Positions 14,068 to 17,995 of a stretch of 64,000 nt of DNA are shown piece by piece. Source of the stretch: a virus. The stretch spans positions 1 through 64,000 of IMG/VR virus record IMGVR_UViG_3300048919_000070. One strand, written 5' to 3'. Below the pieces are notes generated by a model. It was not told where the DNA came from. It saw nothing but the letters and a program-made list of their open reading frames with translations, and ran no database searches. Position 1 is the first letter of the stretch, and each line of letters starts with the position of its first letter. The translations under genes and the position numbers were made by a program.

Positions 14068-14165
14068 CACTTTTTTCGAAAAATATTTAAAAATTTGTCG
14101 TCGGTACCGATCATGTCTGCCTCCGCGCGGGGTAATATAGCCTCGAATGTCTCTTATGCTTGCCT

Positions 14166-14183
14166 TTCTGGTACATCTGGTAC
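14166..14183 (+). repeat. Tandem 9-bp repeat in the HTH gene leader
   Basis: TTCTGGTAC followed directly by ATCTGGTAC, 40 nt before the HTH gene start. The exact 9-mer and the same 9-bp period recur in the repeat field at 17442-17468. It is a candidate operator of the HTH protein, or a second binding site of an origin-binding protein. A possible -10, TAATAT, lies upstream at 14133-14138 without a good -35. Confidence 0.6.
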
Positions 14184-14222: not shown

Positions 14223-14507
14223 ATGTCACATTTACCGCTGCCAGACCACCTGAAAACCGCCGATGACGAAGGTGTTCTGCGTTTTGTTATTACGCGCGCG
14301 GGTCTGTATGCCATCAATTCTGGCTTAGTGAAGGAGATAGCGGAACACTGCGATTTACGTCCGGACGTGCTGTCCCGTTTCATGCGCGAAGGCCATTTCA
14401 CCCCGCGCGCTGCCACGTTAATCGAAAGCAAACTGGGACGCCAGTACGTCCACTGGGAATGGCTCGTTAATCCGCGCGAATGCCTGAAAAACGGAGGCAT
14501 TTATTAA
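14223..14507 (+). CDS. Small helix-turn-helix DNA-binding protein (Cro-like)
   Basis: 94 residues. The ATG at 14223 is chosen because GGAG lies 6 nt upstream; ATGs at 14160 and 14211 lack a site, and the first overlaps the repeat at 14166. The central part, SGLVKEIAEHCDLRPDVLSRFMREG, reads as a helix-turn-helix, followed by FTPRAATLIESKLG, as in phage Cro/CI-type regulators. It overlaps the primase gene by one base (TAATG). It may regulate its own leader, which carries 9-bp repeats also present at the putative origin. Confidence 0.7.
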   Translation: MSHLPLPDHLKTADDEGVLRFVITRAGLYAINSGLVKEIAEHCDLRPDVLSRFMREGHFTPRAATLIESKLGRQYVHWEWLVNPRECLKNGGIY

Positions 14508-17137
14508 TGGCTAAAACTTCGCTTCATCAAGTCGGCGAAGACCTGGCCGTTAATGGCTACATCTTTACGCCGATCCGGCGGAAATTGAAGGCGCCGTTAT
14601 TCAAAAACTGGACTACGAACGACTTCGAAGGAAACTGGGAAAACTGGGTTCTGCAACACGGTGATTGCGGGGCCGGCATCCTTACCGCCAAAAACCCTGC
14701 CGTCGACCTGGATATCCGCGACGAAGAACTCGTCGAGCACATGTCTGATTACGTGGAACTGGTGTATGGCAGCGCGCCTACGCGTGTGGGTATGGAGCCG
14801 AAACGCCTGCTGCTGTTCAAACTGTCCGGCGCTAAATTCCAGACCATGAAATCTGTCTGGCATGACGGCGACCCGAAAGACAAAAAGACCCCGAAACACG
14901 AAGTTCAGATCCTGGGGGATGGCCAGCAGTTCATCGCTTTCGGTATCCACCCCGATACGAACAAGCCGTACAAATGGGTGGCCAATGGCGACCCGACAGA
15001 AGTAGACCATGATGCCCTGCCAACGCTGACCGAAGCGCAGGCGTTCGACATCATCGCCGAGTTTGACCGCGAGTGTGCGAAACGCGGGTGGACTCACTCT
15101 ATGGCCGTGCGCGGGCAGTCCCTGGGATGGGACGACGAGGACGAAGAGTACGAAGAAGATGACTGGGTAAACTCCGCCGTCGACCAGTACAGCCAGTATG
15201 ATGGTGATTACGATGAACTGGAGCGCAAAGTTATGCTGCTGCCGGGTGCGGAGGATTACCAGCAGTGGATTCGTGTCATCGCAGCGCTGCAGACCGGTGT
15301 GGAAGACCAGGACCGGGCATACGACATCGCCCTGAAATGGTCGGCGCAGGCCAATAACTTCGACCAGGATGCTTTCGACCAGAAGTGGGACGAGGGATTC
15401 AAGCACGATAAAAAGCGCCTGATCTCCTTCCGTTCGCTGCTGCAGGAAGCCAACGAAATCGAAGACCGCCAGCGCGCGGAAGCCGTCGAAACGCTTATCC
15501 CGAAATTCTCCGGCGCCACCAGCCGCGACGAGTGGGTGGAAGCCGCCAACCATTTCCGCAAAGTCAAGATGTTCGGAATGGCGCGAATGGACGTTGTGAA
15601 GGTCGCCTGCGACAAATACAACGACCTCATGGGGCGCAAGCTGACTCCGGCGGAAATCAAGAAGAACCTGTCATACCGTATCGACCCCGACGACCTGCCA
15701 GGTTGGCTCATGCAGTGGTGTTTCAACCGCCAGACCGGCCTTTTCGTCAACATTCGAAACGGCTCGTCCAGTAGCGTCCAGGCTTTCGACCTCGCCATGC
15801 GCCGCTACATGGTGGACGAAGATCCAGACACGACTCCGGCAAAACTGGCCATGGATATTTACCAGGTTCCGGTGGTGGACGGCGTGATGTATAACCCGCT
15901 GGCGCACGGCGAAACGCCGAACGGCGAGTGGAAGCCTGTTCGTGAATGCGCGGGCCGGCCGGAGTTCTTCCGCTTCTTCGAATCCGACAACCTAGCCTAC
16001 TCCGCGGATAATGGCCGCATCTTCCTGAATACCTTCCATCCGGACACGATGGTGGATATGCCGGACGAATACAGCCAGCGCGACCTGAAAAACATCCAGA
16101 TCATGAAGGACTTTTTCATGGTTCAGTTCCCGGACCACAAAGAGCGCGAGTACGTGATGGAATACTTCGCGTGGGCGATCAAAAACCCAGGGAAGCGAAT
16201 CAACTACGCCCTGATCATCCACGGTTGCCCTGGTTCGGGTAAAACCATCATCCGCGAGATGTTCCGCTGCATCCTGGGTGACGCGAACGTCGGCGAGGTA
16301 AGCAACTCCGACCTGCAGAGTAACTTTACGAAGTGGGCTGAGTCGGACATCGTTAAATTCGTGGAAGAAGTGTCGGTGGTCGGCCACGGTTATGACGTGC
16401 TGAACAATATCAAGCCGTTCATCACTAACCCGATAATCTCCGTCCGCCGTATGCGCGAAGACAGCCTGAAAGTGCGTAACACCGCCAGTTACATCATGGT
16501 GACGAACGACCCTGCAGCGCTGCCGATCGACGACAACGACCGCCGTTATCTGGTGGTGGCCAGTCAGTTCCAGGATAAGAAGCGCGACCTGATCCCGTTC
16601 CTGAAATCTGAGCCGAATTTCTTCAAACGGTTCGACCGCGCTTTCCGTCAATCCGCTGGCGCGCTGCGCAAATGGTTCAGCGAATTCCAGTTCCGGAAAG
16701 ACTTCAATCCTTCCGGTGGCCATGCCCCGATGGACACCATGGCGCGTGAACGAATGATGGCTCTTTCGAAGGACGATTTCACCGATTCCGTGATGACGTG
16801 CGTAAGCGAAAACTCGACTCGCAACGTTTGCCGGGACATCATTTTCATGCCGGATTTGATGGCCTATCTCGATCGGGAAATTGAGAACTTTAAGGCTCCG
16901 AACTCGCGTTCGATTTCACGAAAAATGGAAGCGGCGGGATTCTATCGGGTGGCGTCCACGCACTCCGGTAAAGTTCGCATCGACGGAAAACTGGGACGCT
17001 GCTATTCACCTCAACCGAAGCATTTTGAACGCCCTGACGGTTCCCCGGATGCCGATGAAATTCGTGCATGGCTCGATCGTCATAACGAAGCGAATGTACA
17101 GGAGGAAGACGAATTCGACGAAGATGACATGCTTTAA
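14507..17137 (+). CDS. Primase-polymerase / SF3 helicase fusion
   Basis: 876 residues; ATG 14507 with GGAGG 9 nt upstream. The N-terminal bifunctional primase/polymerase domain has the catalytic AVDLDIRD (Asp67, Asp69) and the later QFIAFGIHPDT. A PriCT-like helical segment is seen around residues 235-320 (DYQQWIRVIAALQTG). The C-terminal helicase has Walker A HGCPGSGKT near residue 575, KFVEEVSV (Walker B) and MVTNDPAALPIDDNDRRY, the sensor/arginine region of D5/SF3-like helicases. It would prime and unwind at the origin. The tail FDEDDML is acidic. A terminator and a repeat field follow directly. Confidence 0.92.
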   Translation: MAKTSLHQVGEDLAVNGYIFTPIRRKLKAPLFKNWTTNDFEGNWENWVLQHGDCGAGILTAKNPAVDLDIRDEELVEHMSDYVELVYGSAPTRVGMEPKRLLLFKLSGAKFQTMKSVWHDGDPKDKKTPKHEVQILGDGQQFIAFGIHPDTNKPYKWVANGDPTEVDHDALPTLTEAQAFDIIAEFDRECAKRGWTHSMAVRGQSLGWDDEDEEYEEDDWVNSAVDQYSQYDGDYDELERKVMLLPGAEDYQQWIRVIAALQTGVEDQDRAYDIALKWSAQANNFDQDAFDQKWDEGFKHDKKRLISFRSLLQEANEIEDRQRAEAVETLIPKFSGATSRDEWVEAANHFRKVKMFGMARMDVVKVACDKYNDLMGRKLTPAEIKKNLSYRIDPDDLPGWLMQWCFNRQTGLFVNIRNGSSSSVQAFDLAMRRYMVDEDPDTTPAKLAMDIYQVPVVDGVMYNPLAHGETPNGEWKPVRECAGRPEFFRFFESDNLAYSADNGRIFLNTFHPDTMVDMPDEYSQRDLKNIQIMKDFFMVQFPDHKEREYVMEYFAWAIKNPGKRINYALIIHGCPGSGKTIIREMFRCILGDANVGEVSNSDLQSNFTKWAESDIVKFVEEVSVVGHGYDVLNNIKPFITNPIISVRRMREDSLKVRNTASYIMVTNDPAALPIDDNDRRYLVVASQFQDKKRDLIPFLKSEPNFFKRFDRAFRQSAGALRKWFSEFQFRKDFNPSGGHAPMDTMARERMMALSKDDFTDSVMTCVSENSTRNVCRDIIFMPDLMAYLDREIENFKAPNSRSISRKMEAAGFYRVASTHSGKVRIDGKLGRCYSPQPKHFERPDGSPDADEIRAWLDRHNEANVQEEDEFDEDDML

Positions 17138-17171
17138 CGATTTTCTGAAATTGGCCAATTTTTGAAATCAG

Positions 17172-17203
17172 ATCCCTGGAGAAATCCGGGGATTTTCGTT
17201 TTT
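17172..17203 (+). terminator. Intrinsic terminator after the primase-helicase gene
   Basis: ATCCCTGG, a 6-nt loop, CCGGGGAT, then TTTCGTTTTT. Eight-bp stem with one G-U pair, 35 nt after the stop. Confidence 0.85.
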
Positions 17204-17995
17204 GTAGGCGTGAAAATTCACGTTTTTCGGCCATTTTTCGCGTGATTTTCCATGGTATTTTCGTGAAAGTACCAGAACACGAAAACTTCCGGTACAGGGT
17301 TAAGCGTATGATCTATAAGAGGAAATCGACTTCGTGCCGAGTGTACCAGAAAGGTTCAGTTACGCGTTATATATGAGATACGATCTATGTAGTGTGATCA
17401 GTCTTATTTAGACAGTGGAGTCTTAATGGAACCTTATAAACTTCTGGTACTTCTGGTACTTCTGGTACTAATAAACTCTAAGTTATCGGAATATAAAGAA
17501 ATTTTGTTGTACCAGAAACTGTACCAGAAACTGTACCAGAAGCCGTACCAGAAAGAGTTGTGCCGAAAGTACCAGAACTTCCATGGAAAAGTGGCAGTGG
17601 AGCCATGGCCGATCCCGCAGATTTCCGTAAACCGCGGCTCTGCGCCCCCGCGGCATTCGAATGGGGCCGGGGAAGTACCTTTTGACCCCCATCAAGAATT
17701 CTTCCGAAATCGCCCCGCCACGACGCGCAGCTAGCCAGGCAGTACCATCGCATTACTTACTACGCGATCGCCTCGTCTGCCCCCCATAGCGGCGCTAGAA
17801 TCGCTATCCTGATATACGTGTTATACGTGATATGCAGATATTCACCATGATCGGGGTGATCATAGTGTGCGGCGGTGTTCTGTATGGGGTGATCTCTGAA
17901 TGCTACGAATGAATAAAAACAGGCGGGACCAGTATCATGATCGCCACGTTGTACACGGCAACCACGAAAGCAAGGATGAAGGGCAAGCAATAGAA
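17204..17995. other. Non-coding region, candidate replication origin
   Basis: About 800 bp without a convincing gene. The left part holds the 9-bp repeat field (17269-17577). The right part (about 17580-17990) shows no clear signal; the only open frames are short, lack ribosome sites, or are made of repeat sequence. Position next to the primase-helicase gene and between opposing transcription units suits an origin. Confidence 0.5.
17269..17577. repeat. Iteron-like repeat field (GTACCAGAA / TTCTGGTAC)
   Basis: Exact GTACCAGAA at 17269, 17343, 17509, 17521, 17533, 17545 and 17569; exact reverse complements at 17442, 17451 and 17460; a variant, TTCCGGTAC, at 17287. The three reverse copies are strictly tandem (9-bp period); four forward copies have a 12-bp period. 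The two clusters point in opposite directions around an AT-rich 40-bp centre (17469-17508). This is the architecture of iterons flanking an unwinding element. The bound protein is unknown; the HTH protein and the primase-helicase are candidates. Confidence 0.8.

Follow-up and report, generated by a model that had tools for sequence, protein, structure and literature searches.

Positions 17269-17577 of the DNA described here very probably constitute the replication origin of a tailed phage of the Casjensviridae, with the adjoining primase-helicase acting as its initiator and as the reader of its repeats. The window, which is the whole stretch of 64,000 nucleotides that was analyzed, comes from a viral record of 64,605 bases, the nearest named relative of which is Erwinia phage pEp_SNUABM_08 (Gwanakrovirus); the primases of the two share 88% identity. 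The order in this part of the window is HTH gene, primase-helicase, hairpin, iteron array, and cos-like 12-mer, and the individual features are as follows:

14166-14183, minus strand: a 9-bp tandem pair of iterons (GTACCAGAA, GTACCAGAT) ahead of the HTH/primase operon, lying outside the array of the earlier, sequence-only reading.
14223-14507, plus strand: first gene of the operon, encoding an HTH-like protein of 94 aa (phrog_7401); it shows no covariation with the iteron word.
14507-17137, plus strand: primase-helicase, the proposed initiator, with PrimPol (PF09250), PriCT-2, and DUF5906 helicase domains.
16730-17134, plus strand: C-terminal domain of the primase-helicase, predicted to be winged-helix-like and proposed, from covariation and a model, to read the iterons.
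17170-17195, plus strand: terminator-like hairpin behind the primase gene.
17269-17277, plus strand: iteron box 1, GTACCAGAA, the template box at p=131 after the primase stop.
17287-17295, minus strand: iteron box 2, variant GTACCGGAA; a box 2 at 18-22 bp also occurs in relatives with other words.
17343-17351, plus strand: iteron box 3; in the 20 template-fitting loci its distance from box 1 is 73-77 bp.
17442-17468, minus strand: left tandem of three iterons with a 9-bp period; a tandem of 7-9 bp is kept in relatives.
17469-17508, no strand: AT-rich centre, 80% AT; the same place averages 73% AT in 19 arrays.
17509-17553, plus strand: right tandem of four iterons with a 12-bp period, all exact word matches.
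17569-17577, plus strand: last iteron, an exact word match.
17637-17648, no strand: cos-like 12-mer GCTCTGCGCCCC (complement GGGGCGCAGAGC), assigned by its likeness to the chi end and by cos annotation in relatives.

A word search of the window located ten exact copies of GTACCAGAA within 17269-17577, seven on the plus and three on the minus strand, starting at 17269(+), 17343(+), 17442(-), 17451(-), 17460(-), 17509(+), 17521(+), 17533(+), 17545(+), and 17569(+), with the variant GTACCGGAA at 17287(-) as the eleventh member of the array. This agrees in full with the sequence-only reading, which had reported ten exact copies and one variant, three in tandem in one direction and four at a 12-bp period in the other with 40 bp of AT-rich DNA between them; the period of the triple is 9 bp. 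Matches to GTACCAGAA with at most one mismatch number 31 in the whole window as against 8.4 expected (sd 2.9), a count which none of 100 shuffles reached, and the word score between the primase stop and cos is 30.5, where the maximum of 30 shuffles was 5.0. Two features of iteron origins are present: a short word in several copies, regularly spaced and beyond chance, and beside the iterons an AT-rich element. The latter, the 80% AT centre of 40 bp, stands in a window of 43.9% AT in which 0.0125% of the 40-mers reach 80%, and is likely to be the DNA unwinding element.

The array had also been placed in a gene-free region after the primase-helicase gene and its terminator. The hairpin at 17170-17195 does lie between the gene and the array. 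Freedom from genes holds as far as the annotation of relatives reaches; mechanical ORFs at 17426-17734(+) and 17478-17753(-) do overlap the array, and no support was found for either of them. Cumulative GC skew, proposed as a check, has no extremum at 17 kb and hence gives no support for an origin at that place. A scan for sigma-70 promoters returned a number of hits equal to chance. Folded as a single strand the array region is strongly structured (z -7.2), because its iterons are opposed. Beyond the array, GGGGCGCAGAGC is one base off the cohesive end of phage chi, which is GGTGCGCAGAGC (PMC4342425), and the annotations of Smarc1, Seifer, Enc34, BcepNazgul, and Siskin put cos ends at the equivalent position.

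Sixteen annotated phages were read between primase and cos, and arrays of other words were seen there. The words include CCCTAAGT in the Newforgelanevirus group, GTTACAA(G/A) in chi and Seifer, GGTAACAG in SP-030, ATTACAA(A/G) in BSPM4, ATTACAAA in Enc34, GACACACT in JC01, GGTCCGAA in AH2 and BcepNazgul, and GTCCCATAA in pEp_SNUABM_08. Absence of the repeats from near relatives, which the sequence-only reading had named as refuting an origin, was not what was seen: they are present, with the word altered where the C-terminal domain of the primase-helicase is altered. A de novo word search covered 69 unique loci (83 given, the window included, less 11 duplicates and three that were short downstream, L017, L043, and L068); the weakest loci (L091, L093-L103) and repeats of earlier loci (L026-L029) were not entered. 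In 52 of the 69 the best word beat all 30 shuffles made for that locus. No word rose above the shuffles in the other 17, among which Redjac and AVP3 have an explanation. The Redjac array starts some 700 bp past the stop, behind an HTH-like stretch, and the searched stretch ended at 900 bp. In Aeromonas phage AVP3 (L023, 1-700) the operon is inverted, and four exact copies of ATTGCAGT lie between cos and the operon, upstream of the latter. The HTH-primase operon is turned round relative to cos in the Aeromonas loci L058 and L065 as well as in AVP3. The record of Salmonella phage ST-101 (L015) seems to be missing the stretch from the primase terminator to cos, array included, perhaps through an assembly join.

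Across relatives with different words, the boxes keep their order and spacing. A word-blind template was drawn up consisting of box 1 on the plus strand, box 2 on the minus strand at 18-22 bp, box 3 on the plus strand at 73-77 bp, a minus tandem of 7-9 bp, and a plus box 46-56 bp further. It scored 29-35 out of 35 in 20 of 37 loci, the best of 740 shuffles scoring 28; since its ranges were set after the spacings had been viewed, the template describes them, with a chance control, and does not predict them independently. The 37 loci were picked from those with a visible word, and one of them, L009, ends with its record and could not fit. The words that fit include GTACCAG, GTCCCGT, TGTCTTA, CCCTAAG, GACACAC, GTAACAG, GTTACAA, and ATTACAA. 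The 17 loci off the template include Enc34, L044, Siskin, and the Burkholderia group (AH2, BcepNazgul, and similar), whose words are strong. The stretch between the tandem and the next plus box, with its mean of 73% AT in 19 arrays, compares with 57% for the whole gaps. The array lies anywhere between roughly 55 and 225 bp from cos, with its inner spacing kept.

The iteron word probably follows the C-terminal domain of the primase-helicase, which we propose as its reader. Covariation was examined in 22 loci (21 after merging near-identical ones), with words assigned by eye. In a partial Mantel test on the 21 loci the correlation of the word with the C-terminal domain, given the body of the protein, was 0.39 (permutation p 0.0002), and that of the word with the body, given the C-terminal domain, was -0.09 (p 0.86). 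Nineteen pairs of loci have a body identity of at least 0.88; they are non-independent and represent about four separate switches. C-terminal identity is 0.92-1.00 in the nine pairs that share a word and 0.57-0.90 in the ten that do not, and the body identities of the two classes overlap. Where L005-L007 and the window, which have one word, are set against pEp_SNUABM_08, which has another, the separating changes cluster in the last ~125 residues of the primase and include the start of the presumed recognition helix and the wing of the predicted structure. Primase residues 561-620 (about 16187-16366 in the window), by the Walker A motif, also track the word (partial r 0.36).

Individual pairs illustrate this. 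The Salmonella phages SP-030 and BSPM4, with the words GGTAACAG and ATTACAA(A/G), are 98% identical in the primase body and 66% in the C-terminal domain, and both their HTH proteins and their small terminases (TerS) are 100% identical. The corresponding figures for SP-030 and Seifer are 97% (body), 63% (C-terminal domain), 97% (HTH), and 81% (TerS). SP-030 and SP-088 differ in word and share 94% of the body, 63% of the C-terminal domain, and 100% of the HTH protein; PIN2 and L044, which also differ in word, share 97%, 58%, and 68%, respectively. Seifer and SP-088, by comparison, have one word, a body identity of 92%, and a C-terminal identity of 95%. The TerS proteins of Seifer and PIN2 are 98% identical, and their words differ. 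The window and L005 have one word and a nearly identical C-terminal domain, yet their HTH proteins are 55% identical. The HTH protein, the HTH reading of which comes from the annotation of its relatives as transcriptional regulators, was accordingly rejected as reader, being identical in SP-030 and BSPM4 despite different words and divergent in the window and L005 despite a common one. The sequence-only reading had found no initiator gene of known type; this is probably wrong, the comparison pointing to the C-terminal domain of the primase-helicase.

The last 135 residues of the protein were modeled with AlphaFold2 from a 45-row alignment, giving a pLDDT of 77.9, helices at 14-27, 40-50, and 59-68, and a two-stranded wing. 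Foldseek returned nothing convincing with this model (best E 0.16), and VIA-align matched it to many winged-helix domains with Z up to 5.2, a level that common arrangements also reach. With such scores a C-terminal winged helix is plausible but weakly supported. No solved P4 alpha domain appears in either fold list, which bears neither way. No Pfam family was found for the C-terminal domain of the window protein, and the one match to this domain in a PDB sequence search was weak (E 0.018) and to a different kind of protein. In the rest of the protein, PF09250 (PrimPol) was found and a bacterial Toprim-type primase was not, the helicase is SF3/D5-like in that PF19263 scores above its cut-off and the solved phage primase 6k9c matches residues 510-694, and the helicase match to TIGR01613 falls below its cut-off. 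We take PF19263 to belong to the SF3/D5 group.

The divergence of the C-terminal domain continues into the array. When the DNA of SP-030 and BSPM4 is compared in 150-base bins, identity is 90-100% as far as about nt 2100 of the primase (86% in the bin furthest out). It then declines to 79, 64, 68, 56, 50, and 46% over the codons of the C-terminal domain and over the array, and recovers to 90-98% just before cos. It falls at about the same place in SP-030/Seifer, PIN2/L044, and L005/pEp_SNUABM_08. The C-terminal domain and the origin thus look to have been exchanged as one cassette. A Cro-like gene in the gap of SP-030 sits inside the exchanged block, as it does in Chivirus with such a gene; none is annotated or was seen in the gap of BSPM4, PIN2, or the window, so that the Cro-like protein is not a general reader. 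Across the relatives, the word has changed several times together with the C-terminal domain, often with the spacing unchanged.

Copies of the word also stand in front of the operon. Among the 21 loci examined, own-word copies occur before the operon in the window, L005-L007, pEp_SNUABM_08, and L030, taking the form of clean 9-bp tandems, each of the phage's own word, in the window, pEp_SNUABM_08, and L030. The remaining 15 have no own-word copies there, bar three single one-mismatch matches. The pair at 14166-14183 in the window is likely to serve autoregulation or as a second initiator site. The promoter regions of L005 (4620-4720) and L006 (4630-4700) contain one exact GTACCAGAA beside copies of the GTCCCAAAT type, which resemble the word of pEp_SNUABM_08, and this mixture looks as if caught between two words. 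Sites of the GGTACC type, often paired and inverted, precede the HTH gene in the window (14103-14109) and in the same region of chi, Enc34, and L006; they are shared by phages with different iteron words and are, by eye, candidate operators for the HTH protein.

The last iteron lies 60 bp from the cos-like 12-mer, and in AVP3 the array stays beside cos despite the inverted operon, both of which would suit a cosB-like packaging site where the small terminase, next to cos, binds the repeats. That reading is quite unlikely: TerS is identical in SP-030 and BSPM4 and nearly so in Seifer and PIN2, both of them pairs with different words, the distance to cos varies where the inner spacing is constant, the copies before the operon switch along with the array, and other motifs adjacent to cos (the GGGGCTATGG type) stay constant, by eye, while the iterons change. 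Alternatively, the copies that precede the HTH/primase operon in the closest relatives of the window could mark an operator array for the HTH protein, concerned with transcription control only. We regard this as very unlikely, given HTH proteins that are identical in SP-030, BSPM4, and SP-088 with different words and diverged in the window and L005 with one; the majority of the copies, moreover, come after the end of the operon, 15 of 21 loci lack own-word tandems before it, and the separate inverted GGTACC sites look the likelier HTH operators.

That the origin is read by some other factor, whether a host protein, another protein of the phage, or the primase's helicase portion, would accord with the correlation of residues 561-620 with the word, and the comparison took in part of the phage genes. 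Such a reader is quite unlikely, in that SP-030 and BSPM4 share a host genus and differ in word, and in that the exchanged block consists of the primase C-terminus and the array, plus in some phages a small regulator which is absent elsewhere. Finally, the same 12-bp and 9-bp tandems elsewhere are mostly peptide repeats, and the region folds as a single strand, as would a coding or structural repeat (a VPE-type peptide repeat or a stem-loop site) with no origin function. The 21 outside loci with a tandem 9-mer (L122, L123, L127-L145) mostly code for VPE peptide repeats and have a single orientation, as opposed to two in the window. A search for the 12-bp triple found 12 viral contigs, three of them L005-L007 and the other nine of single orientation, and that for the 9-bp triple found 12 bacterial contigs, all of single orientation; no satellites or plasmids carrying the window's word were among the matches to either. 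The 7-, 8-, and 11-bp spacings of relatives are incompatible with any reading frame, the fold follows from the opposed iterons, and Chivirus has not retained the opposed long tandems, all of which makes a repeat of this kind extremely unlikely. The earlier interpretation is supported in part, the origin-type iteron array beside the primase-helicase being well supported by comparison (52 of 69 loci, the spacing template, and the C-terminal covariation).

From the array and its neighborhood we infer how binding, opening, priming, and autoregulation might proceed at such an origin. The winged-helix-like C-terminal domain of the primase-helicase would bind the 9-bp iterons, so that copies of the protein gather on the two opposed clusters. 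Rings of the SF3-type helicase would then assemble and open the AT-rich centre, the PrimPol domain would prime both strands, and extension would fall to the family-A polymerase, ssDNA-binding protein, and helicase that the phage itself encodes. In the window and its near relatives the extra copies before the operon probably let the primase-helicase control its own synthesis by feedback at the promoter. Over evolutionary time, domain and array change or are exchanged jointly, with the rest of the protein, and often the box spacing, staying as they were.

The best reading of these sequences is an initiator-iteron origin of the SaPI/P4 kind in a PrimPol-helicase phage. The Rep protein of SaPI and Cch2 of SCCmec are described as reading iterons downstream of their genes through their C-terminal domains (PMC7581432). 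The window resembles them, as far as that account goes, in having a proposed initiator helicase with a C-terminal domain that is predicted to bind DNA, and iterons, which lie directly downstream of the proposed initiator gene. Unlike the window, SaPI and SCCmec are satellite or cassette elements whose helicase has no fused PrimPol, whereas the window is part of the genome of a tailed phage that encodes a polymerase of its own, and many words occur within its one virus family. The alpha protein of P4 is reported to combine primase, helicase, and a C-terminal winged helix that binds the origin repeats in one protein (PMC4234260). The primase-helicase of the window likewise joins primase and helicase to a C-terminal domain that is proposed to bind origin repeats. 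The P4 primase is of the bacterial (Toprim) type, in contrast to the PrimPol (PF09250) of the window with its sub-threshold TIGR01613 match, so that the window protein is not of the P4 alpha family proper.

In plasmid pRN1, orf56 and orf904 are described as an operon of a small regulator and a PrimPol-helicase, for which a C-terminal winged helix was proposed, with a required origin region downstream; the origin is given there as a stem-loop without iterons, and the same account reports that no specific binding was found (PMC4234260). Stem-loop recognition was proposed for PrimPol-SF3-winged-helix proteins, that of phage BIP-1 included (PMC4234260). The layout of the window, with a regulator and PrimPol-helicase operon followed by the origin region, is that of pRN1 and BIP-1/BPP-1; it differs from pRN1 in possessing short iterons, and an iteron-free long stem-loop was not found. 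In BPP-1 (L121, about 1050-1200), a relative of BIP-1, a 9-bp repeat, GTTTGCCTC/GAGGCAAAC, occurs as two pairs of opposite orientation on either side of an AT-rich centre, about 0.5 kb beyond the end of the primase gene, and may correspond to the published stem-loop. In the PLE satellites of Vibrio cholerae, the DNA-binding domain of RepA is reported to covary with the origin through module exchange, and the selecting force suggested there was an origin-directed nuclease (PMC8263062; background PMC7145576). The window and its relatives appear to share with PLE the change of DNA-binding domain and origin as a module; the PLE initiator, as described, differs in being an unrelated RepA_N protein with an N-terminal DNA-binding domain and iterons of about 30 bp.

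No description of an origin or iterons in chi-like phages was found in the open-access literature, as judged by title and abstract. What the comparisons present is, very probably, a known kind of origin in a new setting, together with a testable rule, namely that the iteron word tracks the primase-helicase's C-terminal domain. This bears on the published suggestion, in the form given in PMC4234260, that PrimPol-SF3-winged-helix proteins recognize stem-loops and not iterons. SP-030/BSPM4/Seifer, PIN2/L044, and the window/pEp_SNUABM_08 are natural chimeras in which the word has changed and the geometry has been kept; they make changes of initiator specificity, and origin words as barriers between related phages, testable in phage-host pairs. 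More tentatively, the C-terminal domain of the initiator and the origin word in the Casjensviridae might form a "lock and key" cassette which is selected for change and is swapped or re-evolved with its box geometry preserved, such that co-infecting relatives, satellites, and origin-directed nucleases could not use or attack each other's origins. If so, the plan may extend to other PrimPol-helicase phages such as BPP-1, for which a stem-loop rather than iterons has been suggested.
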